From contig CP092874.1 in NCBI GenBank assembly GCA_030710605.1, positions 25,688,282-25,752,281 of the forward strand: 64,000 bases of DNA, written 5' to 3'. The notes beneath the pieces were generated by a model. That model was not told the origin of the DNA. It worked only from the letters and a program-made list of their open reading frames with translations, and did not search any database. This stretch comes from Cordylochernes scorpioides. Its lineage: Eukaryota > Arthropoda > Arachnida > Pseudoscorpiones > Chernetidae. The translations under genes were made by a program, and so were the position numbers. Of the stretch, positions 6,234 to 59,177 are shown in pieces (position 1 is the first letter of the stretch; each line of letters starts with the position of its first letter).

Positions 6234-6305
6234 TTTTGCCGACTTAGAAGAGGAACTTTCGAAACAGTACCTGCAGTTGATGGAGCTCCTTGTACTCGGG
6301 GACAA
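6234..6305 (+). CDS. CRP1 exon 4 (secreted cysteine-rich peptide, partial)
   Basis: A 72-nt phase-0 exon between TTTCAG and GTAAGT. It encodes FCRLRRGTFETVPAVDGAPC and then TRGQ. The same exon, the same length and phase, occurs at 14918 (minus), 42306 and 57319, with the DGA[PT]C core kept each time. Upstream exons 1-3 would lie before this window. The DGAPC...VC-x2-G-x-C plan resembles cysteine-rich ends of some secreted arthropod peptides and of ADAM-type cysteine-rich modules; I do not recognise the exact family. The downstream intron holds a satellite array and ends at exon 5 (10280). Confidence 0.75.
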
Positions 6306-6399
6306 GTAAGTTTATTGAATTTATTAATCCTATTTGTATGATGAAATACAGTTAAACCTGTCTATAGCACCCTCTATAAATAGCGCCTCCCTCTCTATA

Positions 6400-8990
6400 G
6401 CGCCCGATTTTAAATACGTAGTTTATTTCTCCGAAGGAAGACAAAACGTTTTTGTTGAAACGTTGAGAAAATGAAAAAACTCTAACTGAACGAAGTATCT
6501 ATTTTTCACAGAAATATAGAGAAATTATTATGGAGTTATTGTAAAGAGAAAATGGAAAAGTAGGAAATTTCCAAACAGATATATAGTTAAACCTGTCTAT
6601 AGCGCCCCCTTCTATATAGCGCCTTACTTTCTATAGCGTTCGATTTTTAATACGTAGTACGATGCGATTTACATTAAAAGTGACCTGTCTATAACACTCC
6701 CTCTCTATAGCGTTCGATTTTTAATACGTAGTACGATGCGATTTACATTAAAAGTGACCTGTCTATAGCACTCCCTCTCTATAGCACCCGATTTTAAATA
6801 CGTAGTAGGATGCGATTTACATTAAAAGTGACCTGTCTATACACCCCCTCTCTATAGCGCCCGATTTTAAATACGTAGTACGATGCGATTTACATTAAAA
6901 GTGACCTGTCTATAGCACTCCCTCTCTATAGCGTCCAATTTTAAATACGTAGTACGATGCGATTTACATTAAAAGTGACCTGTCTATAGCACTCCCTCTC
7001 TATAGCGCCCGATTTTAAATACGTGTACGATGCGATTTACATTAAAAGTGACCTGTCTATAGCACTCCCTCTCTATAGCGTCCAATTTTAAATACGTAGT
7101 ACGATGCGATTTACATTAAAAGTGACCTGTCTATTGCACCCCCTCTCTATAGCGCCCGATTTTAAATACGTAGTACGATGCGATTTACATTAAAAGTGAC
7201 CTGTCTATAGCACTCCCTCTCTATAGCGCCCGATTTTAAATACGTAGTACGATGGGATTTACATTAAAAGTGACCTGTCTATAGCACTCCCTCTCTATAG
7301 CGCCCGATTTTAAATACGTAGTACGATGCGATTTACATTAAAAGTGACCTGTCTATAGCACTCCCTCTCTATAGCGCCCGATTTTAAATACGTAGTACGA
7401 TGGGATTTACATTAAAAGTGACCTGTCTATAGCACTTCCTCTCTATTGCGTCCAATTTTAAATACGTAGTACGATGCGATTTAATTAAAAGTGACCTGTC
7501 TATAGCACTCCCTCTCTATAGCACCCGATTTTAATTACGTAGAACGATGCGATTTACATTAAAAGTGACCTGTCTATAGCACTCCCTCTCTATAGCGCCG
7601 ATTTTAAATACGTAGTACGATGCGATTTACATTAAAAGTGACCTGTCTATAGCACTCCCTCTCTATAGCGTCCAATTTTAAATACGTAGTACGATGCGAT
7701 TTACATTAAAAGTGACCTGTCTATAGCACTCCCTCTCTATAGCGTCCAATTTTAAATACGTAGTACGATGCGATTTACATTAAAAGTGACCTGTCTATAG
7801 CACTCCCTCTCTATAGCGTCCAATTTTAAATACGTAGTACGATGCGATTTACATTAAAAGTGACCTGTCTATAGCACTCCCTCTCTATAGCGCCCGATTT
7901 TAAATACGTAGTACGATGCGATTTACATTAAAAGTGACCTGTCTATAGCGCTTCTCTAAATAGCGCCCGATTTTAAATACGCAGTACGATGCGATTTACA
8001 TTAAAAATGACCTGTCTATAGCACTCCCTCTCTATAGCGTCCAATTTTAAATACGTAGTACGATGCGATTTACATTAAAAATGACCTGTCTATAGCACTC
8101 CCTCTCTATAGCACCCGATTTTAAATACGTAGTACGATGCGATTTACATTAAAAGTGACCTGTCTATAGCACTCCCTCTCTATAGCGCCCGATTTTAAAT
8201 ACGTAGTACGATGCGATTTACCTTAAAAGTGACCTTTCTATAGCGCTCCCTCTAAATAGCACCTTCCTCTCTATGGTGTCCGATTTTAAATACGTAGTAC
8301 GATGCGATTTACATTAAAAGTGACCTGTCTATAGCACTCCCTCTCTATAGCGTCCAATTTTAAATACGTAGTACGATGCGATTTACATTAAAAATGACCT
8401 GTCTGTAGCACTCCCTCTCTATAGCACCCGATTTTAAATACGTAGTACGATGCGATTTACATTAAAAGTGACCTGTCTATAGCACTCCCTCTCTATAGCG
8501 CCCGATTTTAAATACGTAGTACGATGCGATTTACCTTAAAAGTGACCTATCTATAGCGCTCCCTCTAAATAGCACCTTCCTCTCTATGGTGTCCGATTTT
8601 AAATACGTAGTACGATGCGATTTACATTAAAAGTGACCTGTCTATAGCACTCCCTCTCTATAGCGCCCGATTTTAAATACGTAGTACGATGCGATTTACA
8701 TTAAAAGTGACCTGTCTATAACACTCCCTCTCTATAGCGTCAAATTTTAAATACGTAGTACGATGCGATTTACATTAAAAGTGACCTGTCTATAGCACTC
8801 CCTCTCTATAGCGCCCGATTTTAAATACGTAGTACGATGCGATTTACATTAAAAGTGACCTGTCTATAGCACTCCCTCTCTATAGCGTCAAATTTAAATA
8901 CGTAGTACGATGTGATTTACATTAAAAGTGACCTGTCTATAGCACCCCCCTCTCTATAGCACCCTATTTTGGTGAGTCCCAAGAGATGGC
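6400..8990 (+). repeat. Satellite A, 74-bp unit, about 35 copies
   Basis: Unit hallmarks: GTGACCTGTCTATAGCACTC, CCTCTCTATAGCG and ACGTAGTACGATGCGATTT. Variants alternate between GCGCCCGATT and GCGTCCAATT. A composite variant containing CTAAATAGCACCTTCC appears near 8240 and again near 8550, a higher-order repeat of about four units. It lies inside intron 4 of CRP1. Confidence 0.92.
6428..6470 (+). ncRNA. Hammerhead-like motif, class III, degenerate
   Basis: CTCCGAAGGAAGAC ... GTTGAAACGTTGAGA. The 3' half GAAACGTTGAGA matches the intact class III motif at 35720; the CUGACGA half is altered to CCGAAGGA. It sits within the satellite-bearing MITE, between its first two units. Confidence 0.4.
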
Positions 8991-9012
8991 ACTATAGACA
9001 GGTTTAACTGTA

Positions 9013-9593
9013 CTTATAATTGTATATTCCATTTTGTTTAGTTAAACACTGACTTTCACATAAGCACCTATCCTTAAGATTTACTATTTTATTTTAATCT
9101 AAAAAGACAAAGGTCGCCTCTCCCGTCAAAATAGACGTCAAAACCAGGCGCCATCTATTGACCGTCACCGCAAACTAGCGGCTTCGGGTCGGTGACATAG
9201 CCACAACATCACCAATTTCCATCTATAATTTATTTTGTCTTATTTCAGTAATTTTATTATAGAGATTTCACTGTTATATATAGAGTAGTCATCCCAATAG
9301 GTAGATATGGTCGAATTACATATTGTCTGATAGAAATATATATGATGCATTAGCGCGTGATCTGTTATGACAAATTTGATCTTGGTATTAATGGTAGATT
9401 AAACTAGCGAAACCGCTGTGAGGGTTCACCACTGATGAGCCAATCCCTCCCATTATTTTATCATTGGCAATAAGAGCCTAGTAGTAAATTGATTTATTTT
9501 TGAAAATAATCATAAGTGTCAAAAATTGTTTAAAATTTTCATGATAGAAATTTCTTGTCACAGTTGTTATTAATAAAAGACAATTAGCTGATG
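9013..9593. repeat. CRP1 intron 4: dispersed repeats
   Basis: 9096-9210 (GTCAAAATAGACGTCAAAAC, GGTCGGTGACA.AGCCACAAC) matches 42430-42690 in CRP3, so the two introns share ancestry. 9350-9545 is a copy of dispersed family F with GCGAAACCGCTG and CACTGATGAGCC. No coding region is seen. Confidence 0.6.
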
Positions 9594-9626
9594 GAAACGT
9601 TTCTTTTTTTATGTATAACGGCAATA

Positions 9627-10279: not shown

Positions 10280-10309
10280 GTTTGCAGAGATGGCCAATGT
10301 CCCCAGTAA
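10280..10309 (+). CDS. CRP1 exon 5 (C-terminus and stop)
   Basis: After TTCCAG the frame reads VCRDGQCPQ and stops at TAA. Phase 0 matches exon 4. A polyadenylation signal AATAAA lies at 10346-10351, within TTAATAAAT, at nearly the same distance as in CRP3 (44546) and CRP4 (59210). This marks the end of CRP1. Confidence 0.75.
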   Translation, partial: VCRDGQCPQ

Positions 10310-10489
10310 AAAGAAAATATTATTTTGTATTTTTCATGTTTGGTTAATAAATGTTCTCTAGACATTCTGTATTTCTCTACCAATTCATTTCTTAATAATT
10401 CAAACATATGTATACAATATTGGGGAAGAAGCACTGTACCCAGAAGTACTTATGGATGCTTCCATGTAAAACCAGGCCATGATAATCAT

Positions 10490-11966
10490 GGTAGGTAGAG
10501 GATTGTGACAGCTTGTACTGTAAGTACACCACATGTCTACACATGTAGTACCAGGCCATGATAACATGGTGGGTAGAGGGTAGTGACAGCTTGTACTGTA
10601 AGTACACCACATGTCTACACATGTAGTACCAGGCCATGATGGTGGGTAGAGGGTTGTGACAGCTTGTACTGTAAGTACACCACATGTCTACACATGTAGT
10701 ACCAGGCCATGATAACATGGTGGGTAGAGGGTTGTGACAGCTTGTACTGTAAGTACACCACATGTCTACACATGTAGTACCAGGCCATGATAACATGGTG
10801 GGTAGAGGGTTGTGACAGCTTGTACTGTAAGTACACCACATGTCTACACATGTAGTACCAGGCCATGATAACATGGTGGGTAGAGGGTTGTGACAGCTTG
10901 TACTGTAAGTACACCACATGTCTACACATGTAGTACCAGGCCATGATAACATGGTGGGTAGAGGGTTGTGACAGCTTGTACTGTAAGTACACCACATGTC
11001 TACACATGTAGTACCAGGCCATGATAACATGGTGGGTAGAGGGTTGTGACAGCTTGTACTGTAAGTACACCACATGTCTACACATGTAGTACCAGGCCAT
11101 GATAACATGGTAGGTAGAGGGTTGTGACAGCTTGTACTGTAAGTACACCACATGTCTACACATGTAGTACCAGGCCATGATAACATGGTGGGTAGAGGGT
11201 TGTGACAGCTTGTACTGTAAGTACACCACATGTCTACACATGTAGTACCAGGTCATGATAACATGGTGGGTAGAGGGTTGTGACAGCTTGTACTGTAAGT
11301 ACACCACATGTCTACACATGTAGTACCAGGCCATGATAACATGGTGGGTAGAGGGTTGTGACAGCTTGTACTGTAAGTACACCACATGTCTACACATGTA
11401 GTACCAGGCCATGATAACATGGTGGGTAGAGGGTTGTGACAGCTTGTACTGTAAGTACACCACATGTCTACACATGTAGTACCAGGTCATGATAACATGG
11501 TGGGTAGAGGGTTGTGACAGCTTGTACTGTAAGTACACCACATGTCTACACATGTAGTACCAGGCCATGATAACATGGTGGGTAGAGGGTTGTGACAGCT
11601 TGTACTGTAAGTACACCACATGTCTACACATGTAGTACCAGGCCATGATAACATGGTGGGTAGAGGGTTGTGACAGCTTGTACTGTAAGTACACCACATG
11701 TCTACACATGTAGTACCAGGCCATGATAACATGGTGGGTAGAGGGTTGTGACAGCTTGTACTGTAAGTACACCACATGTCTACACATGTAGTACCAGGTC
11801 ATGATAACATGGTGGGTAGAGGGTTGTGACAGCTTGTACTGTAAGTACACCACATGTCTACACATGTAGTACCAGGCCATGATAACATGGTGGGTAGAGG
11901 GTTGTGACAGCTTGTACTGTAAGTACACCACATGTCTACACATGTAGTACCAGGCTATGATAACCA
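10490..11966 (-). repeat. Satellite B, 78-bp unit, about 19 copies
   Basis: Unit hallmarks: CACATGTCTACACATGTAGT, ACCAGGCCATGATAACATGG, TGGGTAGAGGGTTGTGACAG. The unit length is a multiple of three, so open frames hundreds of codons long run through it; these are by-products. The same unit appears in opposite orientation at 63370-64000. It lies between the CRP1 and CRP2 3' ends and is homologous to the tail of the SINE family at 43046 and 49501. Confidence 0.95.
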
Positions 11967-12289
11967 TGGTAGTTGGCGATTTCTTGTATTGGGTATTTTG
12001 AAGTTAGAGGTTTGCCGGGCGGCATTCAGTGATCTTTAAAATGAGAAAGTTCGCATAGAATAGATTATCTATCTCGACGTTTCAACAAAAATATTTGGTC
12101 CTCGACAGTAAGAGAAAGCATTTAGAAAGGCTTTATAAATATGTCTGAGATTATGTGGCCATTCTCGCATTATCTTTCAAATTTAATACATCTAAATCTT
12201 CAACAAAACGTTTGTTAGTTTAATATTTTGTTTAATATTCGTGATTTGGATCTTGTATTAAACTTGAAAATGTATCAATAGATATTTTC
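11967..12289. repeat. Inter-satellite spacer, inverted copy of 62335-62620
   Basis: The segment shares TTAATATTTTGTTTAATATT, ATTATGTGGCCATTCTCGCA and TTTCAACAAAAATATTTGG with the reverse complement of 62335-62620. A class III hammerhead-like motif lies inside. Confidence 0.8.
12071..12115 (-). ncRNA. Hammerhead-like motif, class III
   Basis: Minus strand: CTGTCGAGGACCAAATATTT, then TTGTTGAAACGTCGAGA. A6 is changed to U; GAAAC is kept. A short AC/GT stem III and a TCTC.../GAGA stem I can be drawn. The inverted copy is at 62489. Confidence 0.45.
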
Positions 12290-13485
12290 TGATGCTAAAG
12301 TTGGGGTCGGGAAACTACCACCGATCACATGGTACTATGGAGGAGGACTCTACCCAGATGTATCTATAGATACTTCCTGATGTTAGAGCTGGGGTCGGGA
12401 AACTACCCCGATCTCATGGTACTATGGAGGAGGACACTACCCAGATGTATCTATAGATACTTCCTGATGTTATAGCTGGGGTCGGGAAACTACCCCGATC
12501 TCATGGTACTATGGAGGAGGACTCTATATACCCAGATGTATCAATAGATACTTCCTGATGTTAGAGCTGGGGTCGGGAAACTACCCCGAGCTCATGGTAC
12601 TATGGAGGAGGACTCTACCCAGATGTATCTATATATACTTCCTGATGTTAGAGCTGGGGTCGGGAAACTACCCCGATCACATGGTACTATGGAGGAGGAC
12701 TCTGCCCAGATGTATCTATAGATACTTCCTGATGTTAGAGCTGGGGTCGGGAAACTACCCCGATCTCATGGTACTATGGAGGAGGACTCTACCCAGATGT
12801 ATCTATAGATACTTCCTGATGTTAGAGCTGGGGTCGGGAAACTACCCCGATCTCATGGTACTATGGAGGAGGACACTACCCAGATGTATCTATAGATACT
12901 TCCTGATGTTATAGCTGGGGTCGGGAAACTACCCCGATCTCATGGTACTATGGAGGAGGACTCTATATACCCAGATGTATCAATAGATACTTCCTGATGT
13001 TAGAGCTGGGGTCGGGAAACTACCCCGAGCTCATGGTACTATGGAGGAGGACTCTACCCAGATGTATCTATATATACTTCCTGATGTTAGAGCTGGGGTC
13101 GGGAAACTACCCCGATCTCATGGTACTATGGAGGAGGACTCTACCCAGATGTATCTATAGATACTTCCTGATGTTAGAGCTGGGGTCGGGAAACTACCCC
13201 GATCTCATGGTACTATGGAGGAGGACTCTACCCAGATGTATCTATATATACTTCCTGATGTTAGAGCTGGGGTCGGGAAACTACCCCGATCTCATGGTAC
13301 TATGGAGGAGGACTCTACCCAGATGTATCTATAGATACTTCCTGATGTTAGAGCTGGGGTCGGGAAACTACCCCGATCTCATGGTACTATGGAGGAGGAC
13401 TCTACCCAGATGTATCTATAGATACTTCCTGATGTTAGAGCTGGGGTCGGGAAACTACCCCGATCTCATGGTACTATGGTGTAAG
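12290..13485 (+). repeat. Satellite C, 87-bp unit, array C1, about 14 copies
   Basis: Unit hallmarks: GATGTTAGAGCTGGGGTCGG, GAAACTACCCCGATCTCATG, GTACTATGGAGGAGGACTCT. A variant block (ATATACCCAGATGTATCAAT followed by CCCCGAGCTCATGG) recurs at about 12530 and 12967, about 437 bp apart, implying a five-unit higher-order repeat. The array begins just past the CRP2 3' end. Confidence 0.95.
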
Positions 13486-13761: not shown

Positions 13762-13794
13762 TCATTCCCGGGGACATTGGCCAGCTTGGCAAAC
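13762..13794 (-). CDS. CRP2 exon 5
   Basis: After TTTCCAG: VCQAGQCPRE and TGA. Identical in sequence to CRP4 exon 5 (59145-59177). Confidence 0.75.
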   Translation of the reverse strand, partial: VCQAGQCPRE

Positions 13795-16700
13795 CTGGAA
13801 AATCAAAATGTTATCATTGATCATGAACTACTATTGCTTATACATGGCTAAATACAACCTAATTCATGTTACAATTGTCACTCAAAATACGGATTCATAT
13901 AGTCAAGGGATATAAATATTATTAACACATCACAATTATTATCATAAAACCAAATCTTAGCATTTACTATTAACAGATAAGTGATAGGTAAAACATTGTA
14001 AATAAAACAAGACAATTAAATCTTAGAGGTATATGCTTAATGGATAGACATTATAAAAAAAAAAAAGATATTTTCAAAATACACTCATGGACAAAATTTG
14101 AAGAAGGTTTACATTTTAGCATATATATCGGTATTCAGACAATAATTCTGAAAGATATTACAGTAATCTTTATTGAAGACACGAGATAACCAAGTGTATA
14201 TACACTCATGGACAAAACTTAAGGAAGTTGTACCTTTTACCATTTATATCAGGATTCTTACAATAACTCTGAAAGATATTACAGTAACCTTTATTGAAGA
14301 CACGAGATAACCAAGTGTATATACACTCATGGACAAAATTTAAGGAAGTTGTGCCTTTCAGCATGTATATCGGGATTCAGACAATAACTCTGAAAGATAT
14401 TACAGTGACCTTTATTGAAGACACACCAGATAACCAAGTGTGAACAACCTCTGTCTCCTTAATTAAAAAAAAATAGACGATTGGAGACATCCAATTATGA
14501 AATACCTTAAGATTTTGCAAATATTGTAAATGACGATTATTACATAAAAGAATTAATAAGTTAAAGAAAATTTTGCTGCATCTCATAAGAACTCACGTGT
14601 ATATATTTGAGGAAAAGGGGTATTTCATGATTTTGCAACTAAAAGTTGATGATGGCTAGCGCCATCTATCGGAATAAACAGCAACTAATCGTTGATTTTT
14701 AATATTTACAGAATTGTACAAATATCGTTTCTTGATTGATCAAGTAAAGCTAACCACATACACGTTTCGGGCTTTTGGTACAAGTCAAAGTGGTGTAAGC
14801 TGTACCTCAACGACCAAAAAAGTGGTCTTTGTGTATATATTTGTGTCATCCTGATTAGATAAAGAACACGGACGACGTAACAAGAGGATAAAGAAAGTCA
14901 AAAGAAACCAAACTCACCCGACCCCGAGTACAAGGAGCTCCATCAATGGCATCTACAGTTTCAAATGTTCCTCGTCTACGTGTGCAACGCTGAAACCCAC
15001 AAAGTCAGAATTAGAACTTCTAGCTACATCACAGATAGAACATGAGTAACCAATGTCATTGTTTTCTCCATTGTTAAAACTTAGATATGTATTTAAAAAA
15101 AAAATATTTGTATCAATATGGAGTAAAAATATATCAGGTCTCCAGGGAAATTTATTTTTTGACAATTAGAACACTTTTATTGACTTCTTAGTTAATATTT
15201 ATATGAAAAAGATCAAGAGAATTATATATATGTCATAATTTGTATATAATTAAATGCAACCCCGACCCACTATGTATGTATCATGTATGATTTTCAAAGA
15301 CTTAATAAAGAACAAGGTAACTGGAGGGAAGCAAGTAACATTAAGATATAGGAAGTAGATCTAAGATTGGCACGACTATTCTGGGCACCCCTGTGTCAAT
15401 ACTGCAGGGGCAGAGACCGGGCGTCTCTAGTGACCGCAGAAGTTATTTTAGCCAAGATTCACTCAATACTTCCTGACAAACAGGACGTGTCGAGTGACCA
15501 AAAGTTATAAAAGTTTGAGAGACATCCAGTACTTCCGGCAAAAACAGGACGTGTCTAATATCCTTCGAAACTATAAGCGTCAAGCCACCAAACACTTCCT
15601 GACGAAATCGGATATCCCAGGCAGGGCACAGCTTTCATCAAGGGAAGCCGCCGGCCTATCAGAAGATAGCACCTTAAGTAGGTCAACCAATAGAAAAAGA
15701 TCATGTGAGATCTCTCAACCAATCAGAGAGAAACTGACTCGTGGTGTTAAATCGAAAGACAAGAATAGTTAGTTACGCTTTGGCTCCCACGGAGGTGACA
15801 TCGGCTTTAGACCTCTCTCCCTCGGCTCATCCCACAGCTAAGTACAATCACCGCCATGTGATCAGTTAATTAACAATCAAAATCGCTCCGCCTTCTCAAG
15901 CTTTCTTCCCTCCAATCCAGTTGCCTTTTATTTTCAAACCTCACCATGTGTCCTGATTATTCCTAACTGTGTGCTTCACTTACCACTCAACGACTGCGCT
16001 TCAATCAAATATCACCATTCGCATCCAACAACAAGAAACCCGCAACGATATTGTCACAGAACGGTTAAGTCGACAGGATAAAGATTATGGAACTTAATCA
16101 GGATAAAGATTATAGAGCTTAATCAGGATGAAGATGGAAATTAACCCAGGCGCCAGCACAACAAAAGGCAATGACAAACCAAGAGAGAACGAACTGGCAA
16201 CGAGCGGAAAGAAACTGACAACGAACGAAGCGACAAGACATACCCTGGCGACGGTAATTTTAGAACTGACCGCCGCGCTACAAGGGGCGAGATCCCCGCA
16301 ACTGAAAGCGGTCTTCCGGAGCGCCACCCTCGGGACAACCGACACCCGCACCGCCGATACGTATCCGAACAACCTGACGCCCACCGAGGAATCGCCATCC
16401 GCCATGCCGTACCAGTACACACGGAAGCAACCCACGCGACACGGACCCAGTGTACCGACAACGCGTTCCACTCGAATGGAAGCAGTACAAATGACTAGAT
16501 TTCCCTTTCAATCGCGCGGACAGTGCAAAAGGTCCCGATCCGGTTCAACAGATATTCCAAGCCAGCCACACCAAGCCGAAGACGCCACAATGGAGACTTT
16601 TCGAGACTAAGGTAGGCAATCCACCCAATGACACCATCAAATTAACTTTGGACTTGTATCTGACCCGGGACCTACCATGTACCTTTCTCATTGAACCAGA

Positions 16701-28700: not shown

Positions 28701-31700
28701 AGAGTTAGTGAGACGAGACAATAGCAGTTATTCAAGTTTGAAGGAGTTATAGCTCGCTGAGTCAAGAAGCATAGAATTAAAACCAGCGTTAAAATAAGAA
28801 TTAGGCGGTGATTCCTCCTTAATGCCAGGAGGCCAAAGCCAGTTCGAATCAACATATACTGTATACATTTACTAATCTACTCTTCAAAGCTCTTATAATA
28901 AATATACCGTACTAAGCTGTATCTACAATGAACCCACATGGTTTTCTTTGAAACCTTACGCAAACGTTGACAGCTGAGAAGCGTCGTAACAGTATCTTTA
29001 AAAATATATATATATTCTCTAGCTTTCAGGTACGAACGCCCTTCTACAGGAGAAAAAAAAAGGTATAATGAACGGTACATTGTACCATCAATTGAAAAAC
29101 CCTGTACGATTTATAAATGAATAAAACAAAGCATCGAGGGCTGCGTATCTTTTATTAGAACGAATATAATACGAGCTTTCGGGCACATACGCCCTTCTAC
29201 AGGAATTAATGAAACAATAATCCAACTTGTTTGAAATAGGATTTTCTATTTCAAACTAGTTGGATTATTGTTTCATTAATTCCTGTAGAAGGGCGTATGT
29301 GCCCGAAAGCTCGTATTATATTCGTTCTAATAAAAGATACGCAGCCCTCGATGCTTTGTTTTATTCATTTATACATTGTACCATGTTTCCTCCTGTTAAG
29401 GGGTGTTCGTGCCTGAAAGCTAATAATTAAAAAGTTTTTAAAAAGATACTTTTCCCTGAAGGCCTCATATTTCTACTCAATTAGATATGTAAAAACAAAG
29501 TCGGCATATCCTGACCAGGAGCACATGTGCTTTACAGAAGGCAGAGCGCCATCTGGTGGAACAGAAATCAACTAAACATTGATTTAGCCTGTTCCCTGAT
29601 ATTTGGCCAATCCAATTTCTTGATAAATCAAGAAAAGCCATCCACGAAAGCGTTTTGAGCTGTTGGCGCTCGTCAGAGTGGAGCAGGGAACAGGTTAAAT
29701 CAATGAATAGTTGATTTCTGTTCCACCAGATGGTATTTTTATTCGAAGAGTTTAATTTAGTCCATATTGAAAGGTAAATTAGAATGTTTTCCTCTGAATG
29801 ATTAGACAAAATATGGAAAAGTTAGTCATCAGAAAGTATCGTAATTGTGATAATAATTTTACTTACTCTTTGGAAGAAGTCAATAGCTCTTTCATCTTCG
29901 GCTTCTTCTAGTTCATCCATTCTGCCTGCAGCAGTAGTGGTGGTGGTGATTGTAGCGTTTCCTAAGAAGCAACATTTCACCTTGCAGGACCTACGGATCT
30001 ATACATCGTCCCTCGTTAGTACTGTCTAGGGGTGCAGCTCATCATGTACTTACCGGGTATGCCATCAGTATTCTACGTCCATCACTTGTTTGATTACAAG
30101 CTCGTCTGGGAAACCCTGGAACACATCAAGAATTTTATCTTTTCTTATAAAAACCCACATTTATACTCATATAAACTCATAGACAAAACTTATGGATGTT
30201 GAAAGTCTTTGATAATTACCGGTTGTCTATTTTTTTTTTAAGGAAACAGAGGCAATTTTGTTCACATTTCTGGTGTGTCTTCAATAACGGTCACTGTAAT
30301 AAATTTTCAGAGTTATTATCTGAATCTCGATATACATGCTGAAAGGTACAACTTCCTTAAGTTTTGTTTGTTAAGTCTTCAATAAAGGTCACTGTAATAA
30401 ATTTTCAGAGTTATTATCTGAATCCCGATATACATGCTGAAAGGTACAACTTCCTTAAGTTTTGTTTGTTAAGTCTTCAATAAAGGTCACTGTAATAAAT
30501 TTTCAGAGTTATTATCTGAATCTCGATATACATGCTGAAAGGTACAACTTCCTTAAGTTTTGTTTGTTAAGTCTTCAATAAAGGTCACTGTAATAAATTT
30601 TCAGAGTTATTATCTGAATCTCGATATACATGCTGAAAGGTACAACTTCCTTAAGTTTTGTTTGTAAGTCTTCAATAAAGGTCACTGTAATAAATTTTCA
30701 GAGTTATTATCTGAATCTCGATATACATGCTGAAAGGTACAACTTCCTTAAGTTTTGTTTGTAAGTCTTCAATAAAGGTCACTGTAATAAATTTTCAGAG
30801 TTATTATCTGAATCTCGATATACATGCTGAAAGGTACAACTTCCTTAAGTTTTGTTTGTAAGTCTTCAATAAAGGTCACTGTAATAAATTTTCAGAGTTA
30901 TTATCTGAATCTCGATATACATGCTGAAAGGTACAACTTCCTTAAGTTTTGTTTGTAAGTCTTCAATAAAGGTCACTGTAATAAATTTTCAGAGTTATTA
31001 TCTGAATCTCGATATACATGCTGAAAGGTACAACTTCCTTAAGTTTTGTTTGTAAGTCTTCAATAAAGGTCACTGTAATACATTTTCAGAGTTATTATCT
31101 GAATCTCGATATACATGCTGAAAGGTACAACTTCCTTAAGTTTTGTTTGTAAGTCTTCAATAAAGGTCACTGTAATAAATTTTCAGAGTTATTATCTGAA
31201 TCTCGATATACATGCTGAAAGGTACAACTTCCTTAAGTTTTGTTTGTAAGTCTTCAATAAAGGTCACTGTAATAAATTTTCAGAGTTATTATCTGAATCT
31301 CGATATACATGCTGAAAGGTACAACTTCCTTAAGTTCTGTTTGTAAGTCTTCAATAAAGGTCGCTGTAATAAATTTTCAGAGTTATTATCTGAATCTCGA
31401 TATACATGCTGAAAGGTACAACTTCCTTAAGTTCTGTTTGTAAGTCTTCAATAAAGGTCACTGTAATAAATTTTCAGAGTTATTATCTGAATCTCGATAT
31501 ACATGCTGAAAGGTACAACTTCCTTAAGTTTTGTTTGTTAAGTCTTCAATAAAGGTCACTGTAATATATTTCAGAGTTATTGTCTGAATCCCGATATACA
31601 TGCTGAAAGGTACAACTTCCTTAAGTTTTGTTTGTAAGTCTTCAATAAAGGTCACTGTAATAAATTTTCAGAGTTATTATCTGAATCTCGATATACATGC

Positions 31701-36574: not shown

Positions 36575-36644
36575 ATGAAGTCCTTCCTTTGTATCTCCAT
36601 CTTTCTGCTTCTTGCAGTCTCCTGGACCCAGGTTGATGCCTTCT
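36575..36644 (+). CDS. CRP3 exon 1 (signal peptide)
   Basis: 70 nt, phase 1 donor (TTCT/GTAAGT). Starts in CAGACATGAAGT as in CRP2. Confidence 0.78.
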
Positions 36645-39600: not shown

Positions 39601-42600
39601 ATAAAGGTCACTGTAATATCTTTCAGAGTTATTGTCTGAATCCCGTTATACATGCTGAAAGGTACAACTTCTTTAAGTTTTTGTCCATGAGTGTATATTG
39701 GTTATCTCGTGTGTCTTCAATAAAGGTTACTATAATATATTTCAGAGTTATTGTCTGAATCCCGTTATACATGCTGAAAGGTACAAATTCCTTAAGTTTT
39801 GTCCATGAGTGTGTAAACACTTGGTTATCTCGTATGTCTACAATAAAGGTCACTGTAATATCTTTCAGAGTTATTGTCTTAATACAGATATACATGCTGA
39901 AAGGTAAAACTTCCTCAAGTTTTGTCCATGAGTGTAAATTATTGTCTGAATTCCAATGTGCATGCTGAAAATTACAACTTCCTTAATCTTTGTTTATGTG
40001 AATGTGTCTTTTTATTAAAAAAATATTCCTTTCTGACAAGAATTCACTCGAACGTTACCAAGATATGAAGCCATATCGTTCGGTGTTATACAGAAAATTG
40101 TATTATCGGTAAATATATATTTTTGGTGTTCTAGTACATGCCATACGAGCATGTAATCAAGCAAGCGCTGGTCGCATAGTGCTCTTGGCATTGCCGGTAA
40201 GTACATGATGAGCTGTACCCCTAGACAGCACTAACGATGGCCGATGTTAGGTTCCAAGATCCTGCCAGGTGAAGTGTTGCTTCTCAAGCACCCGGATCAC
40301 TACACCTTCTGTTGAAGGAAGAATGGAAGAAGAAGAAGAGAGATCAAATGACACCTTCGAAAATGTAAGTAATTCATTAAGAAAAAGGCATCTCCTTATC
40401 GTGCAACTGAAAGTTGCTAATGGCTTGCGCCATCTATCGGAATAAATATCAACTATTCTCGTTGATTTTTAATTATTCCAGAATTGGCCAAATACCCATT
40501 CTTGATTAATCAATGGCCAATTCTGGAATAATTAAAAATCAACGAGAATAGTTTATATTTATTCCGATAGATGGCGTAAGCCATTAGCAACTTTCAGTTG
40601 CACGATAAGGAGATGCCTTTTTCTTAATTTATGCACCGTATCCCAGTACAATATTACATTTGTACTATTTTTTCACATAAGTAATTCATGGTTTTAAAAA
40701 CGACATTTGAAAATTATCCCGCATGTGTTTCTTTTGAACGAAAAATCGAAATTTATTTTTAAAAAGAAATAACGATCATTTCTAACCTTAAGGATAAGAT
40801 ATGAAAGGATGAATTGTGAAGAATAATGATAAACGGAAAAATAAAAGTGTCCAGGGATGGGAATCGAACCCACAGTGTTCCGCTTACTGGGCAGATGCCA
40901 TATCCACTAGGCTACCCTGGACATATTTTTCCGTTCGTAAATATTATATAAAGTAATTTATAATATAATCATACGCCGCATTATATTGTATTATAAATTT
41001 ATGGTTTTCTTTAATAATTCTAAGTATTTTTTGCGCTAATTCTTTATATATGTTATGAATTATAATGTTTTGATGTTGAAAAGATAGAGAATTGAAGGTG
41101 AAGTCGTGAAAAAGTAAAGATAGTTATTTACTTATCAAGTAGTTTTTATTTTCAATTACTTGAAAAGAGCATTACACATTAATTATTTTTCACAGTAATA
41201 TAGAATTTATAAAACGAATCCTATATTCGTGAATTAAAAAAAAGGTAGGTTAACTATACATATTTACAATAATATTCAAAGTATTCTAAATCTATGGTCA
41301 AAAATAAAAGAATAGTCAATGATGAAAATAAAATACATCTTTTTTAAAAAATAAATTATTCGCATTTTAGATTATATGTATAATATACTAGACGGGTGAC
41401 CCGGGCTTCGCCCCAGGATTGACCCGTGTGCATATCTACCCGAGTGATATATATTTAGATACGATTTTTTTTTTTGATAATTGTTTGTTATTAGCATTAT
41501 CTATTTGTTTGCATCAGCATAATTTAATCTAATCTTTGATAGAGGGCGCTGTTCGTGAGCTAAGTAGAATAATTTGAATATATAGTTTTAATAATTGATT
41601 TATATATATTTTTTAAAATAGCCTATCGTCTTCCCCGTATTTTTTTACCTATGTATGGAAATTTTGGTTTGAATTAGTGAACTACTGCGAATTTGTATAC
41701 CGGACATACAAACAAACAAACATACAAACATTGATTTATATATATATAGATATATTTTAAGCTGTTTTTCACATGAACAGCGAATTTACTCAAACTTGGC
41801 TTTAAATACCCATTCACCCTTAAAAGACGTAATACAGAAGAACAGCCCAGCGTGTAGAAAGGTCGATGTTATTTTCTACTTTCTGTAGATAAATGTTATG
41901 ATAACTTCTGTATCTGGGAGAATCCTGTATGGGACACATGTGTCCTTAATAAAGGCTTTGTTGTTGTTTCTTTGGAATTGAAATAAAACTGATAAACCAG
42001 GAACAAATTCCCTCCATCGAAATCTTGAGAGGTCAAGTATCAAGTTACAAAACATTATATTAAAAATAAAGAAGGCATATCCTGACCACGAGCACATGTG
42101 CTTTTTATATGGCAGAGCGCCATCTAGTGGAGCAAAAATAAACTAAACGTTTATTTAGCTTGCTCCGTGATATTTGGCCAACCCAATTTCTTGATTAATT
42201 CAAGAAAAGCCATCCACGAACGCGTTTCAAAACATTATTTATCTCATTTTTTTTATAAACTGTGAGACTTACTAAATGGGTTAACCATGGCTTGATGTGT
42301 TTCAGACGTGCAAAGTTTTGAGAGGAACCTATGAAACTATACCTGCACTTGATGGAGCTACATGTGGTTTGTTCCGGGTAAGTTTGTCTCAATTATGTTT
42401 ACCTCTTTTTATAAAAATAAACGTCACCTTTCACGTCAAAATAGACGTCAAAACTATACACCATCTATTGACTAAATCCAACTAAAAGAAAAATAATTAA
42501 TTTTATAAACCAGAAATTTGAGGAATACTATGGAAGTGCTAATTTTACGATGATTTGAATATAATTTCATATTTAAACGCAATTATCCTAATTGTGGATA

Positions 42601-44508
42601 TGGCGTGTCTTTGCAACTGTTAAATAAATAAAATAAATCTATTGACCGAAAACTAGTGGCCTCCGGTCGGTGACAAAGCCACAACACCAGCTTTGGTAAA
42701 CTAAGAAGTGCTCCCCTGATGAGAGCCATTAGCCCGAAACCACGGTCTCCAGTCTCACGACGGAGTTGTGCGTTTTGGTAGTGCTGTCACGGTAGACAGT
42801 TGAGATTTCTTAGTTCACCTTGATTGAACTACAAGGACGTACATCTCCATCATGAGTTTGAGTCGTAAATCTGTTTGGAGAATAAAGAGGTTCAACCTTC
42901 CAAATATTATCATTATTCTTAAAATAAAGTCTGTTTCGATTAATTCTAATATACATCTTGTTATTGGTCAGATTTCAACCAAACATATTCATAGGTAGTT
43001 TTGATGACTTCATATTTCGTTCAAATACTTTACTAAGGGTTGTCTGGGGATCGGTGGAAGGATGGTCTAAACCGTTGGTTTTCGACTGCTACGAATCAAG
43101 TTCGATTCCCGCATTGGACACTTTTTTCTAATTAAAATTCTTTCAAAAGTCAAACCCCACCAGCAAGTGCAAGTAACTAAACGGAGCTCTGGCACATTTG
43201 TAAGTGTAAAGTCGAACTGCTTTTCACATGTGTATACGTGTGGTGCACTTACAGTAAAAGCAGTCGCCTACTTCTACCCACCATGATTACCATGGCCTGT
43301 ACCACGTGTACTAAGGATAAACAAAAAAAAAACTATGGATTGTTATAAAGTATATTACCAAAACAACCCAATATTATGGCCAAAAGAACTCTCAATGCAT
43401 TAGAAATGCCCCCAATAAACAAATTAAAACATTATATATAGCTTTATTATAAGGCACCAACGCGCTTTCTATAGATAAAAAATGAAAATTTTAAACCACG
43501 AAGGTTTCATTTATACATTAATCAAATTTCTACTGCCCTTTATTGCGATTAAAAATATTAAAAGAGCTTGGCTCATTATTGGTCAATCCTCCCAGCGTTT
43601 TCGCTAATTTAATCTACCAGACCGCTTCTTAGAGCTCTAATACTGTAATGAAAGATTCTGCTTATATATGCTACAATGAAGGGTGGAATCTTAGAAATGG
43701 TATTTAAGCGAACTATGGAAATAATGTGATTCTGTTTATTAGAAAATAAATATAAAGTGAAAAAATAGTACAAATGTGATATTGTACTGGGATAAGGTGC
43801 ATAAATTAAGAAAAAGGCATCTCCTTATCGTGCAACTGAAAGTTGCTAATGGCTTGCGCCATCTATCGGAATAAATATCAACTATTCGCGTTGATTTTTA
43901 ATTATTCCAGAATTAGACAAATACCCATTCTTGATTAATCAAGAAAAGCTAACCAAGGGCGCGTTTCTTGATTAATCAAGAATGGGTATTTGGTGAATTC
44001 TGGAATAATTAAAAATCAACGCGAATAGTTGATATTTATTCCGATAGATGGCGCAAGCCATCAGCAACTTTCAGTTGCACGATAAGGAGATGCCTTTTTC
44101 TTAAATATAAAGTATAAAATAATAATATAAACAGTAGGAATGCGTTTTTATTTTTCTGTTTATATATGCTGCATTGAAGGGTGGAATCTCAGAAATGGTA
44201 TTTGCGCAAACTATGGACATAAGCTTTTAGGACAGTAGAATTACATTCAAATATTTGTATCGAACAATGCTCTTCCGCAAACAATAAGTGTATAAAGGTT
44301 AGATATTAATTAATTATAAGGTAATAACGTATCATCTAGTAATAGATTATATTGACAATTATTTTATATTGTTTAGATCGATTTTATATTTGGATTAGGA
44401 ATTTACCATGTTTTCTTTATATAATCCATTGTTTATACCTTATATTCCTTGTTCCATACTGACATTTGCATGTTCCAGGTATGCAGAGATGGCAAGTGTC
44501 CCCAGTGA
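36575..44508 (+). CDS. CRP3, secreted cysteine-rich peptide gene (five exons)
   Basis: Exons 36575-36644, 40135-40196, 40269-40364, 42306-42377 and 44479-44508, same lengths as in CRP2 except exon 3 (96 nt) and exon 5 (30 nt), with identical phases. The product is about 109 residues. The signal peptide is MKSFLCISIFLLLAVSW; the mature part has seven cysteines (ACNQ, KCC, TCK, DGATC, VC, GKC). Likely a secreted disulfide-stabilised peptide; the precise family is not recognised. Polyadenylation signal AATAAA at 44546. Intron 1 carries satellites D and E; intron 3 has a palindrome 12 bp from its donor, a tRNA-like gene and a Helitron; intron 4 has a SINE and a palindrome. It is head to head with CRP2, 3.0 kb apart. 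Confidence 0.65.
36645..37084 (+). other. CRP3 intron 1, 5' part
   Basis: Contains a G-rich run at about 36885-36908, a strong candidate for polymerase slippage. No other feature. Confidence 0.5.
37085..37292. repeat. Long palindrome 8
   Basis: TTTTTCTCAAAATATTTCGA mirrored by TCGAAATATTTTGAGAAAAA; the outer parts GTACCTGGATCT and AGATCCTGGTAC extend it. Confidence 0.85.
37395..37560 (+). repeat. Dispersed family F copy
   Basis: CTGGCGAAACCGCTGGGAGG then CACTGATGAGTCAG. Outer pair C-G where others have T-A. Confidence 0.6.
37790..39070 (+). repeat. Satellite E, 77-bp unit, about 16 copies
   Basis: Unit hallmarks: ATCCAAGGTTTATCTACATC, TGTGGATCACTAGTCAAACA, AGTGAATTCACAGAGCGTTG. Found only in CRP3 intron 1. 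Confidence 0.93.
39470..40010 (-). repeat. Satellite D family, CRP3 intron 1
   Basis: About four degenerate units with CTTCAATAAAGGT and TTTTGTCCATGAGTGT. 39071-39469 beside it is AT-rich with no feature. Confidence 0.85.
40135..40196 (+). CDS. CRP3 exon 2
   Basis: 62 nt, phase 1 to 0. Encodes HAIRACNQASAGRIVLLALP. Acceptor TTCTAG, donor GTAAGT. Confidence 0.72.
40269..40364 (+). CDS. CRP3 exon 3
   Basis: 96 nt; VKCCFSSTRI followed by an EGRMEEEEE acidic run. Introns of 72 bp before it hold CACTAAC, a near-consensus branch point. Confidence 0.72.
40377..40627. repeat. Long palindrome 9 next to a splice donor
   Basis: A palindrome of about 250 bp (TTAAGAAAAAGGCATCTCCT ... AGGAGATGCCTTTTTCTTAA) starting 12 bp after the CRP3 exon 3 donor. 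It lacks the central hammerhead of its relatives. Confidence 0.9.
40849..40921 (-). tRNA. tRNA-like gene, anticodon AGT (Thr)
   Basis: Minus-strand fold: acceptor TCCAGGG/CCCTGGA, D arm GCC/GGC, anticodon stem TCTGC/GCGGA, T arm GTGGG/CCCAT with TTCGATT loop. A box TAGCCTAGTGG and B box GGTTCGATTCC are good, and a T run follows. The anticodon loop CCAGTAA has C where U33 is almost invariant, and the body resembles Arg tRNAs. It is flanked by an 11-bp inverted repeat (ACGGAAAAATA / TATTTTTCCGT), so it may be a mobile or pseudogene copy. Confidence 0.55.
41388..41750 (-). mobile_element. Non-autonomous Helitron, 363 bp
   Basis: Minus strand starts TCTATATATATATAAATC after A and ends with hairpin GGGGCGAAGCCC, GGGTCACCCGT and CTAG before T. 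Insertion between A and T fits Helitrons. TGTATGTCCGGTATACAAAT near its 5' end recurs at 45700. Confidence 0.75.
41920..41971 (+). mobile_element. LINE/SINE 3' tail, copy 2
   Basis: Hairpin GGACACATGTGTCC, AATAAAGGC and (TTG)n. Confidence 0.6.
42306..42377 (+). CDS. CRP3 exon 4
   Basis: 72 nt, phase 0. TCKVLRGTYETIPALDGATC then GLFR; the most divergent of the four exon 4 copies. Confidence 0.75.
42714..42760 (+). ncRNA. Possible hammerhead-like motif
   Basis: CTGATGAGAGCCATTAGCCC then GAAACCACGGTC. Both core boxes are present, but stem II is weak. It follows a GGTCGGTGACA repeat shared with 9180. Confidence 0.4.
43046..43321 (+). mobile_element. tRNA-derived SINE, copy 1
   Basis: A-box-like GGTGGAAGGATGG, B box GTTCGATTCC (43100-43109), tail with CACATGTGTA, CTACCCACCATGATTACCAT and a final AATAAAC-like A run. 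Same as 49501; tail homologous to satellite B. Confidence 0.8.
43480..43745. repeat. Dispersed family F, reverse copy
   Basis: TCCTCCCAGCGTTTTCGC, AGAGCTCTAATACTGT and TGAAGGGTGGAATCTTAGAA. Confidence 0.7.
43809..44104. repeat. Long palindrome 10
   Basis: AAGAAAAAGGCATCTCCTTA mirrored at the right. The centre retains only GGCGCGTTTC, the 3' piece of a class I hammerhead. 44105-44478 after it carries family F remnants only. Confidence 0.9.
44479..44508 (+). CDS. CRP3 exon 5
   Basis: VCRDGKCPQ and TGA after TTCCAG. Confidence 0.77.
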   Translation, partial: VCRDGKCPQ

Positions 44509-51969: not shown

Positions 51970-52599
51970 TTATGGAAATATTGCTTTATATGCGTCAGGG
52001 ATCTCTATGTGTCGGTTAATACTATTGTGTTTCAAAGAGAGCAACGCCTCGACGACTAATCTTTTGAATTTGCTGTTGATATTAGAGTAATATGCATGTG
52101 GGTGGGATGTGTTAAAAGAATGTCCTGTTTGTCTAATATGTTGTACGATAAGGGACTTGGGTTCATTATTTCTAATGTTTCTGTGATGTTCGTCCATCCT
52201 GTCCTTGATTCGTCTGCCTGTTTCTCCTATGTATATGCTATTACAGTTTGAGCATTTCAATGAATATACGGAGTTTGTGAAAAAAGGTAGGGTAACGGGA
52301 AAACTATTCTTGGTTATGGGATTTCTGATTATTGTTTCTAATTTGGGGGTGTTGGTGTAAAAGGTACGAATACCATAGTTATTTTTTAGGAATCTAGAAA
52401 TGTTGACACTATGCGTAGAGAATGGGATGGTGCATATGGATTTATAAACTTGGCTATTAAGGTGCTGTTGGTGATTATAAAAGTGTCTGAGTATGAAATA
52501 TTTCGGGTATCCAGAGTTCATCAGGTGATCGATTACGTTTTGGGTTTCTATTTGTTTGAATTCTTGCGAAGAACAGTGTGTGAAAATGCGTTTCGACAA
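51970..52599 (-). pseudogene. Penelope-like element, GIY-YIG endonuclease
   Basis: 209 codons; YSLKCSNCNSIYIGETGRRI, RMDEHHRNIRN and a C-terminus NSINRHIEIPDAYKA. It is the longest PLE piece here, with RT missing. It was probably 5'-truncated at insertion. Confidence 0.85.
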
Positions 52600-52776
52600 G
52601 GTTTTTACGGTGTTAATCTTATGGCTAAGGCTATGTATGATTTTTCTCTAGCTCTTTTTAAAATTTTATTTTTTAACCAATCCTTGAAATTAATGAACGC
52701 ACCTTGTATATACTTTGGAATATATTGCAAAATATAATGATGATTGAAGATTAGTGTATTATATGAGATTTATCCG

Positions 52777-54139: not shown

Positions 54140-54832
54140 TTAGTAGCAAGTAGGACCACCGCGGACGGCGATGCACGCAGCAACACGTCTAGGTAGAGAG
54201 TCAATCAGAGTACGGATGGCGTCCTGAGGGATGGCTCTCCATTCCCTCTCAACCATTTGCCACAGTTCGTCTTCTGAACGCGGCTGTGGCAAGGCATGCA
54301 AACGGCGTCCAATGATGTCCCAGACGTGCTCGATTGGTGAGAGATCAGGAGAGTACGGTGGCCAGGGAAGCATCTGTACATCTTGCAGAGCTTGTTGGCT
54401 AATGCGAGCAGTGTGCGGTCGGGCGTTATCCTGCTGATAAAGGGCATTGGGTACCCCCTGAAGGTAGGGGAGTGTCACCGGTCGCAGCACATCATCAACG
54501 TATCGTTGGGCCGTCATAGTGCCCTGAATACGAAGTAAAGGTGACCTGGAATCATACGCGATTGCGCCCCAAGCCATGATTCCACGTTGTCGCACGGTGG
54601 GGCGTTCCACAATTGCTGCCGGATTGGACCTTTCTCCACGTCGACGCCACACGCGTACACGGCGACTATCACTGGACAAGCAGAAACGCGACTCATCTGA
54701 GAACACGACCCTGTGCCATTCCGTCATCCACGTCGATCCAGCCCGGCACCATTCCAAACGTTGGCGCCTATTCGGTGGGGTCAATGGCAGTCTTCTTAGC
54801 GGACGGCATGAGTGCAAGCCATTAGCAACCAA
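54140..54832 (-). CDS. Tc1 transposase, catalytic part
   Basis: 230 codons with the DD34E catalytic triad: VVFSDESRFCL, YQQDNARPHTA and SPDLSPIEHVWD. The N-terminal part is in a different frame, joined near 54835. It cuts and rejoins the transposon ends at TA sites, using the inverted repeats at 53990 and 55415. Confidence 0.92.
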   Translation of the reverse strand: MVANGLHSCRPLRRLPLTPPNRRQRLEWCRAGSTWMTEWHRVVFSDESRFCLSSDSRRVRVWRRRGERSNPAAIVERPTVRQRGIMAWGAIAYDSRSPLLRIQGTMTAQRYVDDVLRPVTLPYLQGVPNALYQQDNARPHTARISQQALQDVQMLPWPPYSPDLSPIEHVWDIIGRRLHALPQPRSEDELWQMVEREWRAIPQDAIRTLIDSLPRRVAACIAVRGGPTCY

Positions 54833-55170
54833 TCGACGGGAAAGGTTCTGGTCGAGATGGAATTATCTAGGGTGTCTTGCACATGTTGCAGGATGGCGGT
54901 ACCAGTGGCTTGTGGGGCCGCCACTGCTTGTCGAAGGATACGCCGATCCACACGTGCTGACGTCACTCTGGTTGCACCGACATTCCTATAAATTGACACA
55001 TTTCCTTGTTCCAACCATCTTCTCCACAGTCTGTGCACCGTGGACGCACCAAGGTGTGTATCATCTGCGATTTGACGTATGGACCAACCTGCCCTTTTCA
55101 GTCCGATCACCATGCCCCTCGTAAAAGCGTCTGTCTGCTTGAACTGCCTCGGTTTACGATGACCTGGCAT
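54796..55170 (-). CDS. Tc1 transposase, DNA-binding N-terminus
   Basis: 124 codons with paired helix-turn-helix (KRAGWSIRQIADDTHLGAST, HRLWRRWLEQG). The frame is lost near 54835 relative to the catalytic part by a one-base change, so the product would be inactive unless this is an assembly error. Confidence 0.88.
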   Translation of the reverse strand: MPGHRKPRQFKQTDAFTRGMVIGLKRAGWSIRQIADDTHLGASTVHRLWRRWLEQGNVSIYRNVGATRVTSARVDRRILRQAVAAPQATGTAILQHVQDTLDNSISTRTFPVDWLLMACTHAVR

Positions 55171-55851: not shown

Positions 55852-55940
55852 TACTGTCCTATAAGCTTATGTCCATAGTTTTCTTGAAAACCATTTCTGA
55901 GATTCCATCCTTCAGTGTTGCGTATATAAGCAGAATCGTC

Positions 55941-57318: not shown

Positions 57319-57390
57319 CGTTGCAGACGTAGACGAGGAACATTTGAAACTGTAGATGCCATTGATGGAGCTCCATGTACTCGGGGTCGG
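57319..57390 (+). CDS. CRP4 exon 4 (partial gene)
   Basis: 72 nt, phase 0, TTTCAG / GTAAGT. Encodes RCRRRGTFETVDAIDGAPC and TRGR. It differs from CRP2 exon 4 by two bases. Exons 1-3 were not found between 48.6 and 57.3 kb; they may be in the gap or never duplicated. Confidence 0.72.
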
Positions 57391-57519: not shown

Positions 57520-57934
57520 CACCACGCTGACGATTCAAGAGAGGGATAGAAGATCAGGAAATCGTATTTGCGGCCGTTTGGCCCAATTTTAGAGAGCCTC
57601 TCCTCGCGCGACTTTCACCTAAACACAAGACTATTATGTTCCTCGACACTGCCATCGAGCATGCTCAGGACTGCGATTCTCTTATTCGCGAGGGATTGTC
57701 CGAACTCAGGGTGGTCTTAAGCTCCTGATGATATCCAGATGTCCCCTCGGTGAGGGTTCCGCCTGATGTAAATATTAAATGTAAATATTTATTTATCATT
57801 ATATTTTTTTATCCTATTTAACTTGCTCTTATAACTCTTTGTGAGTTTAAACGTTGACGAGATGTCAATGAAGTTGTTTAATTGTCAAAATTGTCACGCT
57901 GACAAGGGCCAACAGCCCGAAACGCTTACGTGGT
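57520..57934 (+). mobile_element. Gag-bearing insertion inside a hammerhead motif
   Basis: CACGCTGACGA (57524-57534) is repeated as CACGCTGACAA at 57895-57905, bracketing about 360 bp. The left arm copy (14755) is unsplit. The insert has a 60-codon open stretch (IEDQEIVFAAVWPNFREPLL, then SPKHKTIMFLDTAIEHAQDC) resembling an LTR-element gag end, then AT-rich sequence. Confidence 0.6.
57893..57934 (+). ncRNA. Hammerhead ribozyme-like motif, class I
   Basis: ACG-CTGACAA, stem II GGGC/GCCC with CAACA loop, GAAACGC and CGTGG. G8 is A, which should abolish cleavage; the upstream half-copy at 57524 has the correct GA. Stem I with CCACG is only complete with that upstream half. Confidence 0.55.
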
Positions 57935-58249
57935 TAGCTTTTCTTGATTAATCAAGAAATAGTATTTGCCCAATTCTGGAAATATTAAAAATCAACGATT
58001 AGTTGCTGTTTATTCCGATAGATGGCGCTAGCCATCATCAACTTTTAATTGTAAAATCATGAAATGCCCCTTTTTCTCAAATATATACACGTGAGTTCTT
58101 ATGGGATGCAGCAAAATTTTCTTTAACTTATTAATTCTTTTATGTAATAATCGTCATTTACAATATTTGCAAAATCTTAAGGTATTTCATAATTTGATGA
58201 CTCCGATCGTCTGTTATTTATTTATTTTTTTTTATTAAGGAGACAGAGG

Positions 58250-58865
58250 ATGTTCACACTTGGCTATCTGGTGTGTCTTCAATAAAGGTCACTGTAATAT
58301 CTTTGAGAGTTATTGTCTGAATCCCGATATACATGCTGAAAGGCACAACTTCCTTAAGTTTTGTCCATGAGTGTATATACACTTGGTTATCTGGTGTGTC
58401 TTCAATAAAGGTCACTGTAATATATTTGAGATTTATTGTCAGAATCCTGATATAAATGGTAAAAGGTACAACTTCCTTAAGTTTTGTCCATGAGTGTATA
58501 TACACTTGGTTATCTCGTGTCTTCAATAAAGGTTACTGTAATATCTTTCAGAGTTATTGTCAGAATCCTGATATAAATGGTAAAAGGTACAACTTCCTTA
58601 AGTTTTGTCCATGAGTGTATATACACTTGGTTATCTCGTGTCTTCAATAAAGGTTACTGTAATATCTTTCAGAGTTATTGTCAGAATCCTGATATAAATG
58701 GTAAAAGGTACAACTTCCTTAAGTTTTGTCCATGAGTGTATATACACTTGGTTATCTCGTGTCTTCAATAAAGGTTACTGCAATATCTTTCAGAATTATT
58801 GTCTCAATCCTTAAATACATGCTGAAAGATACAACTTCCATAGGTTTTTGTCTCCATGAGTGTAT
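58250..58865 (-). repeat. Satellite D family, CRP4 intron 4
   Basis: About five units of about 120 bp with TCTTCAATAAAGGT and TTTTGTCCATGAGTGTATAT; more than in the left arm (about three). Confidence 0.88.
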
Positions 58866-59144
58866 TTGAAGATATATTTTATTTCATTATTGTCTATCCA
58901 TTAAAAATCTAATCCTAAGATTGAATTGTCTTGTTTTATATACAATGTTTTACCTATCACTTATCTGTTAATAGTAAATGTTAAGATTTGGTTTTATGAT
59001 AATAATTGTGATGTGTTAATAATATTTATATCCCTTGACTATTAATCCGTATTTTGAGTAACAATTGTAACATGAATTAGGTTGTATTTAGCCATGTATA
59101 AGCCATAGTAGTTCATGATCAATGATAACATTTTGATTTTCCAG

Positions 59145-59177
59145 GTTTGCCAAGCTGGCCAATGTCCCCGGGAATGA
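59145..59177 (+). CDS. CRP4 exon 5
   Basis: VCQAGQCPRE and TGA; AATAAA at 59210-59215. 58866-59144 before it is AT-rich and the inverted copy of 13800-14064. Confidence 0.72.
   Translation, partial: VCQAGQCPRE

Follow-up and report, generated by a model that had tools for sequence, protein, structure and literature searches.

A clustered gene family for predicted secreted cysteine-rich peptides with an ADAMTS-like tail in the pseudoscorpion Cordylochernes scorpioides

Within a 64,000-nt stretch of the Cordylochernes scorpioides genome (contig CP092874.1, positions 25,688,282 to 25,752,281 of the forward strand; hereafter the window), a first-pass annotation had proposed a cluster of four genes, CRP1 to CRP4, for small secreted cysteine-rich peptides. 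The sequence supports a cluster of genes of this predicted type. Rather than four genes, it includes at least 11 copies of exons 2 and 3 and two orphan 3’ ends, spread along ~298 kb of a single chromosome. In the window the four loci, which extend from the start of CRP1 exon 4 at 6234 to the end of the CRP4 stop codon at 59177, were recovered at the positions first assigned to them: CRP2 and CRP3 as complete predicted five-exon genes and CRP1 and CRP4 as 3’ ends, with coordinates, exon lengths, phases, GT-AG borders, TATA boxes and polyadenylation signals all verified. Based on the searches made, CRP appears to be an unannotated, partly explained family of stand-alone secreted peptides with ADAMTS-like features.

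Gene structure and coding constraint

CRP3 lies on the plus strand and is composed of exon 1, encoding the signal peptide (36575..36644; 70 nt coding), exon 2 with the CNQ motif (40135..40196; 62 nt), exon 3 with SCQVKCC and a linker (40251..40364; 114 nt), exon 4 (42306..42377; 72 nt) and the coding part of exon 5 including the stop codon (44479..44508; 30 nt). CRP2, on the minus strand, follows the same plan, with exon 1 for the signal peptide at 33467..33536 (70 nt coding), exon 2 with CNQ at 30054..30115 (62 nt), exon 3 with SCKVKCC and the linker at 29867..29998 (132 nt), exon 4 at 14918..14989 (72 nt) and the coding part of exon 5 with the stop at 13762..13794 (33 nt). The lengths of 70, 62 and 72 nt previously given as common to the genes were thus found again, and the 132 and 114 nt of exon 3, missing from the first-pass annotation, were added. 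Exon 2 was located by paralog comparison; a scan demanding at least two cysteines or CNQ/KCC, which had the wrong exon in view, overlooked exons 2 and 3. All introns of the CRP models have GT-AG borders with checked phases, a TATA box is situated ~35-50 bp upstream of the ATG, and an AATAAA polyadenylation signal follows 3’ of the stop codon.

Intron 2 measures 55 nt in CRP2 and 54 nt in CRP3 (51-61 nt over 11 copies). The branch point proposed for these genes, TACTAAC, is present as a branch-point-like motif in intron 2 of CRP2, while CRP3 has CACTAAC instead. Intron 2 (40197-40250 on the plus strand; 30053-29999 on the minus strand) is conserved like the exons, and a block around TGATGAGCTGTACCCCTAGACAG is nearly invariant in most of the 11 copies; this block may contain a splicing signal. 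A tRNA-Thr (AGT) gene or tRNA-derived element occupies 40847-40922 on the minus strand within CRP3 intron 3, between exons 3 and 4, and was the sole match to Rfam.

Inside the window, CRP1 and CRP4 consist of exons 4 and 5 only, both on the plus strand: 6234..6305 (72 nt) and 10280..10309 (coding part with stop, AATAAA ~40 nt further 3’) for CRP1, 57319..57390 (72 nt) and 59145..59177 (coding part with stop) for CRP4. Their description as two 3’ halves therefore stands for the window, but truncation at its edge is not a sufficient account. Exon 1 of CRP1 is present to the left, at window coordinate -7059, and no recognisable exons 2 and 3 were detected (best tblastn E 0.20). The peptide SVDFFER at 5380-5400, 5’ of CRP1 exon 4, was considered as an exon-3 remnant and rejected, given the E value of 0.20 and the absence of a donor. 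Upstream of CRP4 exon 4, no exons 1-3 were recognisable in the 12.8 kb separating CRP3 from CRP4 (best E 0.051).

A DNA search of the genome with CRP3 exons 2-3 identified at least 10 places, all at C12 25,584,881-25,882,878 and none elsewhere, and an eleventh copy (l) was found in the flank of the window. An exon-4 query retrieved four places, all within the cluster; as it overlooked known diverged copies, its reach is short. Six copies are complete (d, CRP2, CRP3, i, j and k), exon 4 of copy l enters a run of N, and copies A, B, m and n were only partly seen. Two divergent exon-4-like stretches (KFC[ND]GERF...DGTSCGTPTG) were noticed in the C12 flank at window coordinates -69527 (minus strand) and -29286 (plus strand); partner exons were not found for either, and the two possibly represent a second subfamily.

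Neither CRP3 alone nor an alignment of five family members alone had a match at E<=1 in a protein database search limited to targets of 0.55-1.75 times the query length sharing five-residue words, so that it would pass over any gene model merged with a longer protein. Since this database includes proteins of C. scorpioides itself, the genes look unannotated, and the earlier expectation that gene finders would miss them was borne out within the limits of the length-filtered search. An NCBIfam scan with the same alignment gave no match.

Several observations speak against a chance pattern and indicate constraint. A motif for exon 4, composed after the copies had been seen, occurs four times in the window and not once in 60 first-order Markov shuffles. 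Among six distinct paralogs (A, B, CRP2, CRP3, k and l), mean pairwise identity is 71% in exon 2, 74% in intron 2 and 66% in exon 3, while the 150-bp flanks on each side of this block are only 43-44% identical, in our judgement about the level expected from aligning unrelated DNA. In the six complete genes the ratio of nonsynonymous to synonymous substitution rates (dN/dS), taken over the mature part, ranges over 0.30-0.88 for all 15 pairs, never exceeding 1, although some pairs are near-duplicates and the 15 values are hence not independent. Length differences among these genes are multiples of three, and all six models have open frames, the same exon plan, splice borders, TATA boxes and polyadenylation signals. 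Judged from these sequence features, we are highly confident that the CRP gene family itself is real.

The complete models predict proteins of 111-123 residues, in which a signal peptide precedes a mature part of some 89-103 residues. The first-pass annotation had counted seven cysteines. Most likely, the acceptor of exon 3 lies further upstream than that count implies, by 18 nt or, in copies d and B, by 12 nt, and the mature peptide has eight, spaced C-x16/18-C-x3-CC-x25-37-C-x17-C-x5/6-C-x4-C in the six complete genes. From the upstream acceptor the codons read SC[QK]VKCC, or PCQVKCC in two copies, and the additional cysteine keeps the frame in all 11 copies, of which about six are distinct. 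Its TGC codon is retained in CRP2 and gene i, which carry AAG in place of the CAG found in other copies, so the constraint looks like one on coding rather than on a splice site. The seven-cysteine reading, with the acceptor [CA]AG|GTG, is thus disfavoured, though it preserves the frame; as both acceptors are in frame, both forms of the peptide may exist. Across four paralogs the CQVKCCF block is 93% identical, whereas the linker from cysteine 4 to cysteine 5 (24-36 residues) is the least conserved stretch, with 24% identity.

Resemblance to ADAMTS-type domains

The cysteine pattern had initially been described as one that could not be placed. It can be placed at least partly: the tail resembles the disintegrin-like/cysteine-rich domain of ADAMTS proteins and has intron positions in common with it. 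Pfam PF17771 (ADAMTS_CR_2) was matched by three of five paralogs at E<=1, with a best E of 0.0039, and exons 3-5 of CRP3 taken by themselves reached E 0.0024 and 18.7 bits. In PDB searches, ADAMTS-5 aligned over the CRP tail with E 0.9 (last of 6 matches) and E 0.43 (third of 7), in the latter case without gaps along the tail motif DGxxC-x5-C-x4-C. The x5 and x4 spacing of this motif is present in five of the six complete genes, copy k having x6 and x4. Comparison of the CRP profile with three ADAMTS-type domains of the host genome yielded E 7.2e-5 and a probability of 62.6% over 22 columns.

The gene structure is a stronger argument for ADAMTS descent than these profile scores. A PF17771 search of the host genome located seven places at E<=0.1, four of them over the cut-off, and their exon borders were read by eye, as predictions made without transcripts. 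Three of the four loci over the cut-off (L035, L036 and L037) have a donor in phase 0 four residues past the cysteine of DGxxC/EGxxC. CRP intron 4 is in phase 0 at the same place, four residues past the DGxxC-type cysteine (five in copy k). Moreover, in L035 and the C9 loci L036-L039 the next cysteine pair is preceded, at a distance of two to five residues, by a phase-0 boundary, and CRP intron 2 is near this boundary, in a position that is similar and not exact to the residue. Taken together, these sequence comparisons make it probable that the C-terminal half of CRP descends from the ADAM_CR “disintegrin-like” domain of an ADAMTS-type protease. Loci L036-L039 fall within G000:C9:15505116-15590632, where ADAMTS-type exons are repeated within 86 kb; the region may be a cluster of ADAMTS genes and is a candidate for a relative of the CRP source gene.

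Compared with the ADAMTS domain (PF17771), CRP has the same tail, two phase-0 intron positions and a total of eight cysteines. It differs in being stand-alone, without protease and thrombospondin parts (no such domain was found by Pfam in the complete models), in scoring below the cut-off, and in a long, variable linker that comes with an additional intron. Not all eight cysteines occupy ADAMTS positions either: in our alignment, relative to L034 and the C9 genes, CRP is one short and has one extra.

Other families of small cysteine-rich proteins were compared as well. Salp15/ixostatin proteins are reported solely from hard ticks, chiefly Ixodes, while CRP is from a pseudoscorpion, and Pfam Salp15 (PF12115) was matched by one of five paralogs at E 0.12, which does not place CRP in that family. 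CRP is like the tick ixostatins in its presumed origin and cannot be called an ixostatin on these results. This likeness had suggested a tick as the source animal, an idea that was dropped. With the disintegrin and DC proteins derived from ADAM/SVMP it shares the character of non-enzymatic, cysteine-rich metalloprotease parts; according to PMC10561651 these stem from ADAM/SVMP genes, not ADAMTS, and one DC protein has a gene of its own (PMC9028321). No disintegrin family was among the Pfam matches of CRP2 and CRP3, nor, at E<=10, any family of the von Willebrand C type as in single-domain La1-like peptides.

Duplication, inversion and repeats in the cluster

A unit at 5.2-42.5 kb recurs at 56.3-93.3 kb, shifted rightwards by ~48 kb and mostly outside the window. 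Within it, the segment 5210..22848, which carries the 3’ exons of CRP1 and CRP2, is inverted relative to its duplicate at 56268-75093, whereas the segment 28852..42470, with CRP2 exons 1-3 and CRP3 exons 1-4, is direct relative to its duplicate at 76901-93333, right of the window. CRP2 and gene i are identical in 261 of 264 bases of exons 1-3 and in only 82 of 102 bases of exon 4 plus the first 30 bases of exon 5. Over exons 4-5, CRP2 instead agrees with CRP4 (103/105) and CRP1 with gene i (99/102). Together with the orientation of the segments, this implies that two convergent genes traded 3’ halves through an inversion that left the frame intact. Its breakpoints lie outside the exons seen, and the swap of 3’ exons made chimeric peptides. 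As every exon-3/exon-4 boundary seen is in phase 0, it is also conceivable that CRP3 exons 1-3 may splice to the orphan CRP4 cassette ~15 kb downstream.

Transposons occupy CRP introns and spacers. Long terminal repeat (LTR) retrotransposons are located at 391-4835, 15228-21990 and 23069-28851 (copia type, gypsy-like and Pao/BEL type), two of the three in CRP2 intron 3 and one 5’ of CRP1 exon 4. Their LTR pairs are identical in 233/233, 829/831 and 290/291 bases, which suggests recent insertion between or within CRP genes. Large tandem arrays, whose repeat units measure 77-97 bp, recur within and between the genes at 10463-11970, 12270-13479, 30277-32300, 37771-39075, 44627-45278, 59458-62327 and 63334-64000. 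A Tc1 transposase at 54140-54862 is, among the matches listed, up to 99% identical to C. scorpioides proteins, and GIY-YIG fragments, typical of Penelope-like elements, lie at 34052-34645 (plus strand) and 51970-52647 (minus strand). A search for Chitin_bind_4 gave 150 scored matches, in keeping with an arthropod; one for Spidroin_N gave none, a negative of little weight because its control was silent everywhere.

Proposed function and alternative explanations

On balance, and judging from sequence, we favour CRP as a stand-alone, secreted and rewired ADAMTS-like domain acting as a binding module, with venom as the tentatively preferred setting. An ADAMTS-type domain would have been set free without its catalytic and thrombospondin parts; one cysteine would have been lost and one gained, and a hypervariable linker would have arisen from the residues ahead of cysteine 5. 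The resulting peptide, predicted to be secreted from its signal peptide alone, would be a free-standing binding module whose variable loop, on a disulfide frame, contacts an extracellular or prey protein. The family would expand by duplication, and inversion between convergent copies would trade 3’ exons and give rise to chimeric peptides. For ADAMTS13, PMC4885070 describes the hypervariable region and V-loop of the ADAM_CR domain as substrate-binding exosites. By analogy with these variable loops, CRP would be a binding peptide that engages a partner via its own variable loop.

Several results weigh against ADAMTS descent. The PF17771 cut-off of 27.3 bits was not reached by CRP3 (17.2 bits) or CRP2 (14.7 bits), overall scores being about 17-19 bits, and CRP2 scored better with New_glue (E 0.016) than with ADAMTS_CR_2 (E 0.044). 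Haemadin, Adt-1 and Salp15 also appeared as weak Pfam matches of the five paralogs, and ADAMTS-5 was only one of several weak PDB matches, the others being unrelated; the PDB search with the family alignment found nothing, and that with paralog k no ADAMTS. A tail intron is absent from L034, which is over the cut-off, and from L040, which is below it, and the N-terminal half encoded by exon 2 had no family match. CRP could accordingly be an independent eight-cysteine scaffold whose tail converged on the short DGxxC-x5-C-x4-C loop, as suggested by sub-threshold scores throughout, an alignable part of 22-37 residues and the unmatched exon 2. We consider this unlikely, since CRP agrees with ADAMTS-type genes of the host genome in two intron positions and their phases. 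A reading of the copies as functionless, be they decaying remnants or fragments carried by transposons, would agree with the lack of 5’ exons in CRP1 and CRP4 and with the transposons in introns and spacers, but is very improbable in view of six out of six complete models that are open with splice borders, the dN/dS values, the length changes in threes and the retained TATA boxes and polyadenylation signals.

The same ADAMTS-like family might instead serve in reproductive (spermatophore, seminal or female tract) or immune secretions, the module binding matrix or microbial proteins. This alternative deserves serious consideration: the signal peptide, cysteine frame, tandem array and hypervariable linker suit such roles equally, and the sequence names no tissue. 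Nothing speaks directly against it; the membership of the animal in an order with venomous members raises the case for venom somewhat. Of the salivary, venom or immune roles suggested at first, venom and immune, or a reproductive one, would thus stay as candidates, while salivary is less apt as the animal is a pseudoscorpion. We tentatively prefer for the ADAMTS-like module the role of a venom component of the pedipalps. C. scorpioides is a member of the Chernetidae (Pseudoscorpiones), which belong to the Iocheirata. Venom glands in the pedipalpal fingers of this clade are reported in PMC8136511, and such glands of pseudoscorpions are also stated in the discussion section of PMC5983263. A word search of the latter did not return “ixostatin” and returned “adam” only as an author name; its unresolved group of cysteine-rich peptides might include the family. 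Among the matches listed from the literature on disintegrins/ADAMTS and venom, none mentions pseudoscorpions. A more far-reaching and rather doubtful proposal is that pseudoscorpions evolved their own disintegrin-like venom arsenal from a freed ADAMTS exosite domain, as a parallel to those of snakes (ADAM) and ticks (ixostatins), and diversified it by inversions that traded 3’ exon cassettes between convergent genes.

If the favoured explanation is true, the tiny size of the exons and their scatter among transposons would have caused a gene family to be overlooked in a genome already sequenced, from an order of arachnids that has venomous members. It would provide concrete targets for the poorly known secretions of pseudoscorpions and add a case of an ADAMTS domain released as a secreted peptide. 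The cluster also offers a sequence-level example of how neighbouring genes can swap protein halves when an inversion breaks within long introns of phase 0.

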